From: a bacterium
Lineage (GTDB): Bacteria; SZUA-79; Acidulodesulfobacterales; Acidulodesulfobacteraceae
Assembly (NCBI GenBank): GCA_027319095.1
Contig: DAHVNW010000010.1
Span: 1 to 51,382 of the forward strand
Length of the DNA: 51,382 nucleotides
Direction: 5' to 3'
Shown here: in pieces, positions 2,430 through 26,530 of the stretch
Position numbering within the stretch: position 1 is the stretch's first letter
Layout: every line of letters starts with the position of its first letter
Position numbers and translations under genes: made by a program
The notes under the pieces: model-generated
What the model was told of the DNA's origin: nothing
What the model saw: only the letters and a program-made list of their open reading frames with translations
Databases searched by the model: none

Positions 2430-2942
2430 ATGGCTATGCAGCTTAAAGACTGGGTCGACACCTCGCTTAAAGGCGGAAAGAAAGCGTTAAAAGTCGGAAT
2501 ATTTTCCGACGGAGAAAGTTTTTTCTTTAAAGAAAAAGTCGGAATTTATCTGGATACGCAGTGGACCAGCCTTTACGACCTCGGCCCTTCGAGGATAGAC
2601 CGGCCAAAAGATATATTTAAAACGGCATATAAATTAGGAAAGGCTTTGGAAGAAGGCAAGCTTGAGTTTGGAATTGCTTTATTGGCGGAGAACTGCGCCG
2701 CCGTTACGGTTATCCTCAATAAATTTAAAAACGTCAGGGCAGTTTTTGCTTCGGACGAAGAATATATTGCGGATGCAAGGAGAAAATTTGACGCCAATGC
2801 AATAGTCGTGAAAAATAAAGGCGTTACCATAGACACTAAAAACAGCGAAAAAGAAATTTCTATATTCCTCGGGACTCGTTTCGAGGAAGAAAGCCGGCAT
2901 ATATTCGATTTTATATCCAAAACAGAAAACATTAATGTTTAA
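2430..2942 (+). CDS. Degenerate RpiB/LacAB-fold protein upstream of radA
   Basis: A 170-residue protein that lines up along its length with ribose-5-phosphate isomerase B. Residues 20-30 (KVGIFSDGES) match the RpiB opening strand and SDHAG loop. GKLEFGIALLAENCAAVTVI (about 77-96) matches the RpiB segment holding the catalytic CGTGxG loop, and NKFKNVRAVFASDEEYIADA (97-116) plus DANAIVV match the following conserved region. Alignment is gap-free across the catalytic loop, but Cys is Ala86 and the Gly/Thr loop reads ENCAA; the active-site His of SDHAG is Gly28. Isomerase activity is therefore not expected. The stop overlaps the radA start by 8 nt, implying translational coupling. The true role is unknown. 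The match is from memory of the family, not from a search. Confidence 0.65.
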   Translation: MAMQLKDWVDTSLKGGKKALKVGIFSDGESFFFKEKVGIYLDTQWTSLYDLGPSRIDRPKDIFKTAYKLGKALEEGKLEFGIALLAENCAAVTVILNKFKNVRAVFASDEEYIADARRKFDANAIVVKNKGVTIDTKNSEKEISIFLGTRFEEESRHIFDFISKTENINV

Positions 2943-4305
2943 ATGTAAAAATTGCGGGGCATCTTCGTTAAAATGGGTAGGAAAATGCCCCGAATGCAAC
3001 AGTTATAACGCTATGGAAGAGGTATTTGCCGTAGAGGCAGAGCATGCGGCTAAAGTCGTAAAATTTAAAAAAACCCACGTTTCTCCACCTGTTCTTTCCA
3101 CCGTTGCTTTAGACGTTCAAAATTACAACCTGCAAAACCGCATCGTAACGGGAATAAAGGAATTTGACGTATCCGTGGGTTCTGGACTCGTCCCCGGCCA
3201 GAGCATTCTTATAGGAGGCGAACCTGGAATAGGCAAATCGACGCTCATGCTTCAGGTCGCCGGAAAAATAGCGGCTAAAGGGATAAAAACCCTTTATATC
3301 TCCGCCGAAGAATCCTTAAACCAGCTTATTTTAAGGGCTAAAAGGCTTAAAATAGAATCGGAAGCGCTTTTTTTACAGGCGTTAAACGATGTTAACGAGG
3401 TTTTGTATTCCGTTCTTAACGGAGATTACGGTTTTATCATAATAGATTCCATTCAAAGGATAACCGTTTCCGACTCCGTTTCGGCTTACGGCAGCATTAA
3501 CGGATTAAGGGAAATAGCCCATGAAATTACCTCTTCCTGCCTTAAGAAAAATTGCGGGGTATTTCTCGTATGCCATGTTACTAAAGACGGCAGTTTTGCA
3601 GGCCCTAAAACTTTAGAGCACATGGTCGATACCGTTTTATATTTCGATTCGAGCAAAAAAGACTCTTACCGGATTTTAAGGTGCTATAAAAACAGGTTCG
3701 GCTCCACGGACGAGATAGGCATTTATGAAATGTCCGAAAACGGTCTTAAGGGGGTTAAAAATCCTTCGGCATATTTTACTTCGGAACGGCAGGCCGGTTC
3801 CCCGGGTTCTGTCATTACTCCGTGTTTGGAGGGGACAAGGGCAATGCTCGTGGAGATTCAGGCGCTTGTAGTTCCGTCCTATATGCCCGTTCCTAAAAGA
3901 GTAGCTCTCGGCATAGACGGCGGAAGAGTTTCCATCGTATCCGCCGTTTTGGAGAAAAAAGAAGGAATAAAGCTTTCTTCTAAGGAAATTTACGTTAAAA
4001 TATTCGGCGGGATAAGCATACAAGAGCCTTCCGTGGATTTGCCGCTTGCCCTTTCGATAGCGTCGAGCTATATGGAAAAACCGCTTATGCCAAATTTTAT
4101 TGCATTCGGAGAGGTCGGGCTTACGGGAGAAATAAGAGGCGTAGCCAATCCCGAAGCGAGAATAAAAGAAGCGCTGAATTTGGGTTTCGGGAACGTTCTG
4201 CTTCCCCTGTCCAACTTTAACGAAGTTAAAGACTTAAAGGGTTTTTCAGGGGTAAACTTTCATCCCGTTTCAAAATTAAAAAAAATTATTGAATATTTAA
4301 TCTAA
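2935..4305 (+). CDS. radA: DNA repair protein RadA (Sms)
   Basis: At 456 residues this is a full-length RadA, the RecA-like hexameric helicase that promotes branch migration in recombination repair. A four-cysteine zinc finger sits at C4/C7/C18/C21. Walker A GEPGIGKST is at 95-103, and the RadA-specific KNRFG motif is at 252-256. The C-terminal third is the Lon-protease-like P domain, with DLPLALSIAS and a GEVGLTGEIR segment typical of RadA. The start overlaps the end of the RpiB-like gene by 8 nt, so the two are probably cotranscribed and coupled. No residue appears missing. Confidence 0.95.
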   Translation: MFKCKNCGASSLKWVGKCPECNSYNAMEEVFAVEAEHAAKVVKFKKTHVSPPVLSTVALDVQNYNLQNRIVTGIKEFDVSVGSGLVPGQSILIGGEPGIGKSTLMLQVAGKIAAKGIKTLYISAEESLNQLILRAKRLKIESEALFLQALNDVNEVLYSVLNGDYGFIIIDSIQRITVSDSVSAYGSINGLREIAHEITSSCLKKNCGVFLVCHVTKDGSFAGPKTLEHMVDTVLYFDSSKKDSYRILRCYKNRFGSTDEIGIYEMSENGLKGVKNPSAYFTSERQAGSPGSVITPCLEGTRAMLVEIQALVVPSYMPVPKRVALGIDGGRVSIVSAVLEKKEGIKLSSKEIYVKIFGGISIQEPSVDLPLALSIASSYMEKPLMPNFIAFGEVGLTGEIRGVANPEARIKEALNLGFGNVLLPLSNFNEVKDLKGFSGVNFHPVSKLKKIIEYLI

Positions 4306-21892: not shown

Positions 21893-23152
21893 TTATTGCC
21901 GCTTAATTTTTTCTATTTCTTCTTTGACGAGTTTTTCTATAATCTCCGGTATAATATTTTTTATCGTTTCGATGATTTGAGGCTTAATTTCCTCGAAGGT
22001 TTTTTCTACGGATTCTTTTAGAAAGTTGTCTAATTTAACTAAGTTTTGTTCGTCTAAAATTTTCAAATTTAATTCTCCTTTAGATTTTTCGGCGTTAATA
22101 GTTTCCGAAAAGGTTTCGTTAAAAGCAAAATTTTCCATGTGTTTCACCGTTACCGGCGCTGCCGTTTCTAACGCGGACAGGACGGTTTCCTCTTTTTCCA
22201 AGTTTTTATCCAAATTATCTTGTTCTATATATTCTTTCGAAGCAGGACCGGCTGCCGCTTCTTTCTCTTTGTTATCGAAAGTCCAAATTTCCGCCGGTTC
22301 TTTTTCGCCGGACATGGAAGTTTCCGCATATTCCTGCGACGTTTCGGAAATTTCGACATATTCCGCTTCGGACGGTTCTTGCTGTTCTTTAGTTTCCATA
22401 TGTTTAAACTGTTCAAACGGTTCAGGGGGTCCATTGGGTTGCGGCAGTTCCGCCTGCCCCGGTAATTCCGTCCCGCCGGCTTGCCCGGCTTGTTCGCTCT
22501 GTACGGTTTGTTCCGGTTGTTCCGTTTCCTTGCCGGGTTTCGAAGATTTATTAATGTTTTGAAATTCTTTAAAAATTGCGTCGTCTTTAAATAGGTTTTC
22601 GAAAGCCTGGCTTAATTCCGAAGATTCCATTACTGCCTGTTCTTTCGGATTTTCGTATTCGGCATTTACAGTATTTTTGTCGTTTGCGTTTTTAACTTCG
22701 AACACGGATATATCGAATACCTCTTCTTCGGCATCTTCCGTTTTATAAGGTTTTTCCAATGGAGCTGCGGCCGGATTGCCGGCGTTCAGGGCTTTTCTTA
22801 TTTTTGCGATAAAAGCGTCTTTGTCGAACGGCCTGTATATGAATCCGTCGGCTTTTAATTTTATCAGCGTTTCCCTTTCGTTATCAGATAAATCGGAAGG
22901 AACCAATAAAATAAGGGGAATGTCGGAAAATTTAGGATTAGCTTTGATTTCCGCAATGCTTTTTTTTAAATCGATGTCTATTGTGTTGTAGCTTAAGACT
23001 ATTATATCCGGTTTAAGAGTTTCCGCCATTTTAAATAAAGACGACGGTTCGTTTGCGAGATTCAAATTAAAATCGGAACTGTTATAAAATATTGCGGAAA
23101 CAGCCCTTTGCATCGACCCGCTTTCGTCGATAAAAATTAAATTATACGACAT
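21893..23152 (-). CDS. Pseudo-receiver protein with acidic linker and PopZ-like C-terminus
   Basis: A 419-residue protein with three parts. Residues 1-120 fold like a response-regulator receiver: the FIDES strand, PDIIVL, IPLILLVPSD and the FIYRPFD region are in place. The phospho-acceptor aspartate is Ser54, the switch Thr is Val, and the usual Lys is Arg, so phosphorylation is not expected. Residues about 120-365 are a Glu/Gln/Pro-rich, probably disordered linker. The last 45 residues (from about 373) are amphipathic helices with IIETIKNIIPEIIEKLVKEE, resembling the C-terminal self-assembly domain of PopZ (DUF2497) and the tails of receiver proteins in Geobacter/Myxococcus-like bacteria. 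A polar or polymer-forming scaffold is plausible but unproven. GGGAGGCGG is a strong Shine-Dalgarno. Confidence 0.65.
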   Translation of the reverse strand: MSYNLIFIDESGSMQRAVSAIFYNSSDFNLNLANEPSSLFKMAETLKPDIIVLSYNTIDIDLKKSIAEIKANPKFSDIPLILLVPSDLSDNERETLIKLKADGFIYRPFDKDAFIAKIRKALNAGNPAAAPLEKPYKTEDAEEEVFDISVFEVKNANDKNTVNAEYENPKEQAVMESSELSQAFENLFKDDAIFKEFQNINKSSKPGKETEQPEQTVQSEQAGQAGGTELPGQAELPQPNGPPEPFEQFKHMETKEQQEPSEAEYVEISETSQEYAETSMSGEKEPAEIWTFDNKEKEAAAGPASKEYIEQDNLDKNLEKEETVLSALETAAPVTVKHMENFAFNETFSETINAEKSKGELNLKILDEQNLVKLDNFLKESVEKTFEEIKPQIIETIKNIIPEIIEKLVKEEIEKIKRQ

Positions 23153-23194
23153 AATTAACCGCCTCCCAACGCTTTAAAATATTTAAAATTTTTG

Positions 23195-23317
23195 ATATAC
23201 TATCCTTAATTCCATAATAGAAACTATATGATATATATTTTAAAACTATACAAAGCATCGACGAGCTTCGCTAATCCATAAAACAAAATTTTAATGCAGG
23301 ATTAAGGTATTATATAT
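23195..23317. repeat. MITE-like inverted-repeat element A, upstream of lptF
   Basis: The ends 23195-23213 and 23299-23317 are imperfect inverted repeats (core CCTTAATtCC / GGATTAAGG). The right half (23271-23312) is also about 88 percent identical, in inverted orientation, to 25648-25688 downstream of lptG. There is no coding capacity. It lies in the 251-nt divergent gap between the pseudo-receiver gene and lptF. Confidence 0.55.
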
Positions 23318-23403
23318 TTATCGTCTTATTTTTAATTTTATGATTTTAATTTTAATATTTTTAAATAATATAGTCAATAAATTTAAAGAAATTTAAAAAA
23401 ATT

Positions 23404-24492
23404 ATGTCCGTCATAGATAAGTATATATTTAAACAGATGGTTTTTCCTTTTGTTTTCGGACTCCTGATATTTACTTTCAGCGTTACCGTTAACCGTATTC
23501 TTTTGCTTACCCAGATGGTCCTGAATAAAGGAATTAGCATTTCGGCGGTTTTGAAGCTTGCAAGCCTTACCATACCGGATTTTATGATAATAACCCTGCC
23601 GGTATCATTTTTGCTCGCTTTATTGACGGTTTTTGGAAAAATGACCCAGGACAACGAAATTATGGCGCTCAGGGCCTCGGGAATCAGCATAATCAAACTT
23701 ACTAAACCCGTGATTGTTTTTGCTCTCATACCGCTCTTGTTTTCTATTTTTTTTTCTTTTTATTTAGCCCCGAGATTTAATTTTTTTTTCAGGGTGCTTG
23801 CCGTTAAAGAAGTTAAAAAGGCTGCTCTTTCGGCATTAAAAAAAAACTCTTTTACTAATAAATTCGGAAATCTGAAGATTTTCGTTAAAGACGTAAATAC
23901 TAAGAAATCTACTTTAAAAGGCATTTTTATTTTGAACAAGGTGAAAAACACCCCCGAAACGTTAATTGCTAAAAGCGGAAATATACGGTATAACCAAAAA
24001 CTTAATACCCTGTCTTTTTATTTAAAAAAAGGTATTATACAAAACCAAAATCCAGGCTCCGAAAATTTTTGGATGCTTAATTTCAATACTTATAAAATAA
24101 ATATAAAATTAAAAGGGATTTCTATTCCCGGCAAAAAAAGTTCCGTTCATTTCCTTACTTTTTCCGAGTTGGCGCAAAAGTATCTAACCGAAAAAATTTC
24201 AAGGTTAAAAGGCGTTTATCTTTCTTATCTTTATAAAAAGATAGCTATTCCCGCCGCAACATTGCTGTTTATCTTTATCGGGATGCCCTTAGGCATGCTG
24301 TCGGAGAAAAGGAGCCTGTTTATGGCAATTTTCTATACAATAATATTCGTCGTTATATATTATATTCTTTTTACGTCTGGATTTTATACCGCCGTCAGCG
24401 GCGAATTAAATCCGTTTATTGGAGTATGGGGGGCGGATATTTTTCTTGCCGTCTCCGGATTAGTGCTTTATTTAAAAGCTTTTTTAAAATAG
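23404..24492 (+). CDS. lptF: LPS export permease LptF (YjgP/YjgQ family)
   Basis: A 362-residue permease with six predicted membrane segments: two or three in the first 120 residues, a periplasmic beta-jellyroll domain (about 125-255), and three in the last 100. FLLALLTVFGKMTQDNEIMALRASG is the family's cytoplasmic coupling-helix signature that contacts LptB. LptF and LptG form the membrane part of the LPS extractor with LptB (13742). Assignment of F versus G between the two paralogues rests mainly on gene order. Confidence 0.9.
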   Translation: MSVIDKYIFKQMVFPFVFGLLIFTFSVTVNRILLLTQMVLNKGISISAVLKLASLTIPDFMIITLPVSFLLALLTVFGKMTQDNEIMALRASGISIIKLTKPVIVFALIPLLFSIFFSFYLAPRFNFFFRVLAVKEVKKAALSALKKNSFTNKFGNLKIFVKDVNTKKSTLKGIFILNKVKNTPETLIAKSGNIRYNQKLNTLSFYLKKGIIQNQNPGSENFWMLNFNTYKINIKLKGISIPGKKSSVHFLTFSELAQKYLTEKISRLKGVYLSYLYKKIAIPAATLLFIFIGMPLGMLSEKRSLFMAIFYTIIFVVIYYILFTSGFYTAVSGELNPFIGVWGADIFLAVSGLVLYLKAFLK

Positions 24493-24544
24493 GGAGCCGG
24501 ATTTAACCGGGTTTCCCCGCAACGGCGTTATTGAAGGAGAAAAA

Positions 24545-25645
24545 ATGAAAATACTGCAAAAATATCTTATATCGGAATTTTTTAAATACTTTGCCATAAC
24601 GATTGTCAGCTTAATATTTTTTTATATTACGGTAGATTTTATTTCGAACATAGGCGCATTTACAAAACATTCCCCGGAGTTTCAATATATTATTATCTAT
24701 TATTTTTATAAATTGCCGGAAATAACATACAGGGTTCTTCCGCTGTCCATTCTCTTATCCGCATTGCTTTCCATTTCTTTTTTTAATAAAAATAACGAAA
24801 TAACCGCCGTTAAATCATCCGGTTTAAGCATGCTTAAATTTTTTGCGCCTTTAATAGCCGTAGGGGCGTTAATGTCAATTTTTGCGTTTACTCTCTCTAA
24901 TTTCGTCGCCGTGCGTTCAAACGTTTTAAGAAGGACGGTTATGCAAAAGTATATTAATAAAAATAAATCTTACACCGCCGGTTCGGTTTATAATTATATG
25001 ACTAAAAACGTATTCATCCATTATAAAAAAAGCATAGTGACGGCAGAAGTTATGAATCCAAAATCTAAAAAGATAAAGCATGTCAACGTCTATGTTTTCG
25101 GCGGCAATTTTACCCTCGCAAAGAGATATATAGCAGAAGCCGGTCGTTTCGGCAGAAAAGGTTTAATGTTGGCAGGCGTACAGGAAGACACTTTTAATGC
25201 AAAAACCGCTAAAGAAGGATTTACCCAGAAATATTTCAAAACGTTTATAATTCCGATATACTTGAACCTGAGTTTTTTCAAGTCTTACACTTTAAGGCCG
25301 GAGTTTTTATCCATAATAAGCCTGTATAAAATGATAGGGGTTGCCGAAAAGTCCGAATCGGGACTAAGTTACGTTCTTACCAGTTATTATTCTAAATTAT
25401 CTTTTCCGGTTATAAACTTAATTCTTGTATTAATAGGAATATCGGTAGGTCTTATGCTTGGGGAAAAAGGAAATTCTCCCGTTTCCATAGGCATAAGCAT
25501 AGTATTTGCTTTTACATGGTGGGTCGTAAATTCCATAGCTATTTCGCTTGGAGAGTCCGCCCAGTTAAACCCCTTGCTTGCCGCGTTTATGGCGGACATA
25601 ATATTTTTATCTTTTGCCTTATATCTTATACTCGATATAGACTGA
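24545..25645 (+). CDS. lptG: LPS export permease LptG (YjgP/YjgQ family)
   Basis: A 366-residue paralogue of the preceding gene with the same layout: N-terminal membrane segments, the coupling region SFFNKNNEITAVKSSG (about residues 78-93), a periplasmic jellyroll (about 130-255) and a C-terminal membrane bundle including GISVGLMLGEKG and FTWWVVNSIAISLGE. GAAGGAG lies just upstream of the ATG. It starts 52 nt after lptF. Confidence 0.9.
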   Translation: MKILQKYLISEFFKYFAITIVSLIFFYITVDFISNIGAFTKHSPEFQYIIIYYFYKLPEITYRVLPLSILLSALLSISFFNKNNEITAVKSSGLSMLKFFAPLIAVGALMSIFAFTLSNFVAVRSNVLRRTVMQKYINKNKSYTAGSVYNYMTKNVFIHYKKSIVTAEVMNPKSKKIKHVNVYVFGGNFTLAKRYIAEAGRFGRKGLMLAGVQEDTFNAKTAKEGFTQKYFKTFIIPIYLNLSFFKSYTLRPEFLSIISLYKMIGVAEKSESGLSYVLTSYYSKLSFPVINLILVLIGISVGLMLGEKGNSPVSIGISIVFAFTWWVVNSIAISLGESAQLNPLLAAFMADIIFLSFALYLILDID

Positions 25646-25740
25646 AATAATACCTTAATCCCGCAGTAGAATTTTATTTATGGATTAGTCTTAAAATATA
25701 TAGTACAGCTTAAATTGCAGGATTCAGGCAATATAATAAC
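25646..25740. repeat. MITE-like inverted-repeat element B, downstream of lptG
   Basis: The ends carry an imperfect inverted repeat: ACCTTAATCCCGCA on the left (about 25652-25665) and TGCAGGATTCAGGC on the right (about 25716-25730). The left 41 nt (25648-25688) match the reverse complement of element A's right half. The element fills most of the gap between convergent lptG and the metallo-hydrolase gene and could also terminate transcription from both sides. Confidence 0.55.
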
Positions 25741-25750
25741 GCCGGGAAAA

Positions 25751-26530
25751 TCATAATTCAAAACTTAACCCGTCGTAAGAAGGAATGAAGGCTTGTTTTG
25801 ATTTGCACGAACAGATTTCTGCTATTTCGTCGTAATCGACGTTATGCCCCATATGCGTAAAATATGTTCTTGCCGGTTTTATTTTTTCCGAAGCGGCGAC
25901 GGCTTGCTCTATGCTTAAATGCGTCCCGTGGGTATCGAACCTGAGAGCGTCTATCATGAGCGCATTTACGCCCTTAAGCAAATCGAACGACGGTTCCGGT
26001 ATCGAAGAAACGTCGGTAATGTAAGCAAAGTCATTTATCCGGTAACCGTATATTAAATTTTTACCGTGAAAAACGGGAACGGGAGTGATTGTTACTTGAG
26101 GTTGTATTTCAAAAGAATTTTTGATGGTATTGGCGATAAGATATGGCTTGCTTGATTCGGTTTTTTCTTTAAATATATAATCGAACTTATTTTTAATAAA
26201 TTCTATCGACTGTTCGGAACCGTAAACCGGTATGAATTTATTATCTTTCTTTTTTATGTAATTAAACATTCTCAAGTCGTCTATTCCGAAAATGTGGTCG
26301 GCATGGGTATGGGTATAAAGAACGGCATCTATATTTTTTAGGTTAAATTTGAGAGCCTGGGTTCTTAAATCGGGAGACGTGTCTATGAGAATGTCGAAAT
26401 TATTAACCGATATAAGTATAGACGGCCTTAATCTTTTATTTTTGAGGTTCGAGGAGGTGCAGACGCTGCATTTGCATCCTATTAAGGGAACGCCGGTGGA
26501 AGTTCCGCATCCTAGTACTAATATTTTCAT
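25751..26530 (-). CDS. Metallo-beta-lactamase-fold hydrolase, PhnP-like
   Basis: A 259-residue MBL-fold enzyme. The N-terminal GCGTSTGVPLIGCKCSVC followed by KNKRLRPSILI is typical of the PhnP/phosphoribosyl cyclic phosphodiesterase branch, including the cysteine-rich structural zinc region. The dinuclear metal site is THTHADH (HxHxDH), with further ligands in PVFHGKN, YITDVS and FTHMGH. The substrate is unknown; cyclic nucleotide phosphodiesters are likely from the family. It is a single gene, divergent from ntrY. Confidence 0.88.
   Translation of the reverse strand: MKILVLGCGTSTGVPLIGCKCSVCTSSNLKNKRLRPSILISVNNFDILIDTSPDLRTQALKFNLKNIDAVLYTHTHADHIFGIDDLRMFNYIKKKDNKFIPVYGSEQSIEFIKNKFDYIFKEKTESSKPYLIANTIKNSFEIQPQVTITPVPVFHGKNLIYGYRINDFAYITDVSSIPEPSFDLLKGVNALMIDALRFDTHGTHLSIEQAVAASEKIKPARTYFTHMGHNVDYDEIAEICSCKSKQAFIPSYDGLSFEL

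Follow-up and report, generated by a model that had tools for sequence, protein, structure and literature searches.

Two decayed inverted elements around lptFG in an Acidulodesulfobacterales bin: probable MITE copies of IS1380 origin

The window, by which we mean the whole stretch of 51,382 nucleotides analysed here, corresponds to contig C11 in a bin of 1.78 Mb and 168 contigs with an estimated completeness of 97%; the host family is one of acid-mine bacteria, and, judged by lptF, the nearest named genomes are metagenome bins and Candidatus Acididesulfobacter diazotrophicus AP1. Two adjacent genes of the window encode permeases of the LptF/LptG family, and they are bracketed by two short elements, of which A lies between the divergent genes, 96 nt ahead of the lptF start codon, and B begins after 7 nt past the lptG stop codon. 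The features are listed below, with bit scores of R1, a sequence-only model of the element ends built from 25 copies, three of which (A right, B left and B right ends) come from the window itself.

21893-23152, minus strand: divergent neighbour gene, weak match to a response-regulator receiver
23204-23307, plus strand: element A, putative IS1380-type MITE copy, 104 bp, ends CCTTAATTCC..GGATTAAGG
23204-23223, minus strand: left terminal repeat of A, decayed (R1 8.3 bits at 23203-23230, E 0.23, at the expected place)
23246-23270, no strand: about 25 nt of A without counterpart in B, a gap in the middle of the alignment
23288-23307, plus strand: right terminal repeat of A (R1 32.4 bits; blast matches throughout the host family)
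23404-24492, plus strand: lptF homologue (PF03739, E 5.5e-70; TIGR04407, 205 bits, under the cut-off of 230)
24545-25645, plus strand: lptG homologue (PF03739, E 1.3e-59; TIGR04408, 201 bits, under the cut-off of 240)
25648-25652, no strand: left copy of the putative target duplication of B, TAATA (4 of 5 positions match the right copy)
25653-25728, minus strand: element B, putative second MITE copy of 76 bp in the orientation opposite to A (R1 31.0 and 20.5 bits at its ends)
25653-25672, minus strand: left terminal repeat of B (R1 31.0 bits)
25709-25728, plus strand: right terminal repeat of B, decayed (R1 20.5 bits)
25729-25733, no strand: right copy of the putative target duplication of B, CAATA (4 of 5 positions match the left copy)
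25751-26530, minus strand: convergent neighbour gene, MBL-fold (profile match)

The product of this last gene has NF038231 (GPMC system MBL fold metallohydrolase) as its top match, with 299.7 bits, under the cut-off of 360.

The inverted match between the two flanks, to which the original prediction had drawn attention, was recovered by a repeat search and by blastn at 23271-23313 and 25647-25688, with 88% identity over 42-43 nt. Global alignment of A with the reverse complement of B extended it to 61 identical columns out of 76 aligned, indicating end-to-end homology, and the score of 87.5 lay far from that of 1000 dinucleotide shuffles (37.8 +/- 5.5, maximum 59.7). A 19-nt end pattern occurred three times in the window, where shuffles gave an expectation of 0.02. 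Both elements fall within the size range of MITEs (about 30-300 bp, no transposase), no ORF of at least 80 aa was found inside either of them, and each carries terminal inverted repeats of its own, as had been predicted, those of A being weak at the left end. The flanks of A read ACTAT (23199-23203) and TATTA (23308-23312), so that a clear duplication is absent, and they have diverged from those of relatives.

Further copies in the genome, the search for which the original prediction had proposed, do exist. At E<=0.015 the own genome holds 18 ends, arranged as five inverted pairs (B included), A, and seven singles, which makes the elements multicopy there. A blast search of element A against 61 genomes showed the 45 nt of its right end to recur in the host genus and family, and the end CCTTAATCCTGCAATAGAAA was present in all 30 host-family genomes searched (R1, E<=1), for the most part in inverted pairs with a spacing of 76-240 bp. 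Numbers per family genome ranged from 2 (G018) to 145 (G016), with 28 in the own genome, counts that at E<=1, with 150 candidates scored per genome, take in chance matches at the weak end. Across 20 stretches of G016 there were 14 cases of neighbouring ends less than 300 bp apart, and every one of these pairs faced outward (-,+). The sizes of the paired elements cluster near 80 and 164 bp, most of them lying between 76 and 240 bp. All 31 elements in the 20-kb loci were intergenic and none lay mostly within an ORF of at least 100 aa; such ORFs cover 81% of these loci, and random placement would have put about 26 elements mostly inside them.

Target duplications, likewise named in the original prediction as a point to be checked, were evident for the family as a whole. 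Among 50 paired elements 30 were flanked by an exact duplication of 5 bp (2000 shuffles: mean 1.69, maximum 7), and 39 showed at most one mismatch over the five flanking bases (shuffle mean 8.19, maximum 18). The duplicated target is AT-rich, the signal was lost on a shift of the frame, and no peak comparable to that at 5 was seen in the same 50 elements at widths of 3, 4, 6, 7 or 8. The 50 elements are non-redundant pairs of up to 700 bp, outward only and with a summed score >42, weaker or single ends being excluded; they do not equal 50 independent events, as L108/L109 and L130/L134 look like one insertion in two genomes each.

Candidate parents of these elements are found in the same family. 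Of 30 family genomes, 9 encode IS1380 transposases (PF13701), and the six transposases that were tested all scored above the cut-off of NF033539 (NCBIfam IS1380). The copies at L190, L194, L197, L198, L204 and L208 have ends on both sides that follow the design of the MITE ends; the comparison of ends covered the insertion sequences of the six tested proteins and two broken copies. Ends at L190, L197 and L204 read CCTTAA(A/C)TCACCGTTAGAAA, with L208 similar, that at L198 reads CTTTAATCTTGCAATAGAA, that at L194 CTTTAATCCTTCCATAGA, and those at L188 and L189 CCC(T/A)AATCCCGATTTAGAA, while L191 is flanked by TTGCCGATAGAAA-type ends. Duplications of five or six bases were seen by eye around L188, L194, L197, L198 and L204, and none was seen around L189. 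The CACCG-type ends of L197 and L204 match MITEs of the CACCG type. For the TGCA-type ends of A and B the nearest are those of L198, with 16-17 of 19 positions (2-3 differences), and of the internally deleted L195; an intact insertion sequence with exactly TGCA-type ends was not found in the host family.

Deletion intermediates are represented by L132, L138, L195 and an element on contig C99 of the own genome. L132 (406 bp) retains the start of the transposase, 81% identical to that of L191 over 37 aa, and the own-genome element (L011, G000:C99, 923-1564) measures 642 bp, has CACCG-type ends and a TAATA duplication on both sides, and contains a 54-aa piece of a broken IS1380 transposase, 81% identical to that of L190. 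Otherwise the own bin, with its estimated completeness of 97%, yielded one degenerate IS1380 fragment with five stops; neither PF13701 nor NF033539 revealed an intact IS1380 transposase there, and a Pfam scan of two short ORF remnants gave no family.

Relatives' lptFG loci were compared with regard to the presence of both elements. The 300 nt upstream of lptF contained no end-like sequence in 13 oriented loci of the genus (best scores -11.4 to 6.0; own locus 36.1), and none was seen within 200 nt past lptG in 12 loci (best -10.3 to 6.0; own locus 36.2). In the alignment to L218 a gap spans element A, with conserved blocks on either side, and the alignment improved on removal of A in 12 of 13 relatives. 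Removal of B improved it in just 7 of 12, which does not discriminate, so the absence of B from relatives rests on the missing end motif. Judged from these sequences, the lptFG locus of the examined genus relatives lacks both A and B. In the first search, which covered the lptF loci L089-L115, an end match was seen only in the own locus and in L108 and L109, which belong to genus g2. At these two (L108 1148-1312, L109 2791-2955), in Acididesulfobacter relatives, a MITE appears to have inserted independently upstream of lptF, with a spacing to the gene that differs from that of A; in L108 an end-like site also follows lptG.

Taken together, A and B are very probably decayed MITEs that stem from insertion sequences of the IS1380 family and owe their past transposition to an IS1380-type transposase acting in trans; that they point in opposite directions is then incidental. 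The original prediction had regarded them as a small non-autonomous mobile element, and this is borne out by the multicopy family, the terminal repeats, the 5-bp duplications, the absence from relatives' loci and the matching IS1380 ends. The transposase would recognise ends of roughly 20 bp, CCTTAATCC-N4-ATAGAAA, and insertion would duplicate an AT-rich target of 5 bp; that A and B themselves were moved in this manner we infer. Several points speak against it, namely the weak left end of A, the absence of a clear duplication at A, the duplication of B with only 4 of 5 positions, and the lack of an intact insertion sequence with the exact ends. Since the bin yielded no intact IS1380 transposase, both elements are presumably immobile now, and the claim is therefore limited to past mobility, a cognate intact transposase not being demanded of a fossil copy. 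Where they sit, A ahead of lptF and B directly behind the lptG stop codon, they are probably harmless.

The original prediction had further proposed that recombination between the inverted copies could flip lptFG relative to its promoters. Such an invertible switch would agree with the inverted orientation and the 88% similarity over about 42 nt, but the longest exact run shared by A and B in inverted orientation is 15 nt, which is shorter than RecA recombination needs, and the order upstream gene (-), lptF (+), lptG (+), downstream gene (-) was the same in all 15 relatives for which both neighbouring genes could be identified (out of 27 in-family lptF loci, the remainder lacking one neighbour or running off a contig end). 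Moreover, the conserved block adjoining lptF separates A from that gene and would travel with an inversion; A being located upstream of this block, lptFG keeps its own upstream region. We consider a switch very improbable and a rare inversion of lptFG unlikely, and this part of the prediction was not upheld. Doubtful, too, is the retention of A and B as regulatory or RNA-processing elements, with A acting as promoter or terminator and B as a 3' hairpin that protects or terminates the lptG mRNA. The stretch of about 25 nt specific to A does carry a terminator-like hairpin (23271-23250, read on the minus strand), and each element can be folded end to end; however, the folding z-scores of both are weak (-1.0 to -2.0), no terminator-like site was found at B, promoter-like sites around A somewhat outnumber those in shuffles (7 versus 3.1 +/- 1.8), an Rfam search of 22900-26100 gave no match at E<=1, and the elements have decayed and are missing from relatives within the genus. 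The promoter-like and terminator-like signals at A are weak and provide no evidence of function.

Chance similarity of AT-rich intergenic DNA was the reading that the original prediction would have favoured if no other copies existed. Although the regions of A and B are both very AT-rich, it can practically be dismissed, as it is already refuted by the shuffle controls for the 19-nt pattern and the global alignment and is at odds with the multicopy ends throughout the family and the target duplications. The palindromic and intergenic nature of the elements would also suit REP-type repeats that owe their spread to an IS200/IS605-like (RAYT) enzyme and not to a DDE transposase. REP/RAYT elements are not known to have target duplications, whereas a duplication of 5 bp, separated terminal repeats and IS1380 elements with the same kind of ends are present here, and we regard this origin as highly improbable.

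Compared with known systems, the elements share with the IS1380 family (NF033539 / PF13701) the end design CYYWAATC-N6-TAGAAA and the AT-rich duplication of 5-6 bp, as seen in the IS1380 copies of the host family; they differ in the absence of a transposase and in their size of 76-104 bp, and no intact IS1380 with exactly the ends of A and B was found. The Correia elements of Neisseria are of the IS630 type. Like A and B, these and other MITEs are short, multicopy, intergenic and non-autonomous and have terminal repeats (PMC10969869), but the target duplication of Correia elements is most often TA (PMC9330008) and that of the host-family elements 5 bp, so that A and B do not qualify as Correia elements. 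TIMEs and MITEPye1 are likewise MITEs paired with an identified transposase family via their terminal repeats; their parents are Tn3 and IS1182, whereas that of A and B would be IS1380 (PMC4133298, PMC11578231).

Palindromes of the form ATTCCC-N8-GGGAAT are present in the cores of many MITEs (L119, L168, L175, L179, L185 and other 164-bp elements), and in 786 kb of the 20-kb loci 18 of them lay within paired elements and 15 outside; this palindrome resembles the neisserial dRS3. Upstream of a match at contig position 13810 in L036 (G000:C98), back-to-back TTGCCGATAGAAA-type ends form a palindrome of roughly 40 nt, which may represent a minimal MITE belonging to a different IS1380 lineage. Beside the IS1380 copy of L191 a second MITE-like unit (2877-3050) was observed, in which CCCAAATCCCGATTTAG ends enclose a GTCATTGCGAGCGCAGC palindrome. 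A broader reading, which we hold tentatively and with slightly more doubt than confidence, is that in the host family several IS1380 lineages (TGCA, CACCG, CTTCC, CCCGATTT and TTGCCG end types) each spawned MITEs whose cores took up unrelated palindromes, for instance ATTCCC-N8-GGGAAT, on repeated occasions, giving mosaic mobile palindromes that would be Neisseria-like while belonging to a different transposase family.

A word search of the Acidulodesulfobacterales paper (PMC6776010) found no mention of transposons or repeats, and the literature searched, of which the coverage was partial, contained no description of IS1380-derived MITEs. A and B are ordinary in kind, and the novelty lies mainly in the MITE family linked to IS1380, the family of ISEcp1. 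For the lptFG locus a false lead is removed, inasmuch as a switch does not follow from the presence of inverted copies. For the relatives of Candidatus Acididesulfobacter, the IS1380-linked MITE family would explain many palindromic repeats that have so far been left unannotated.
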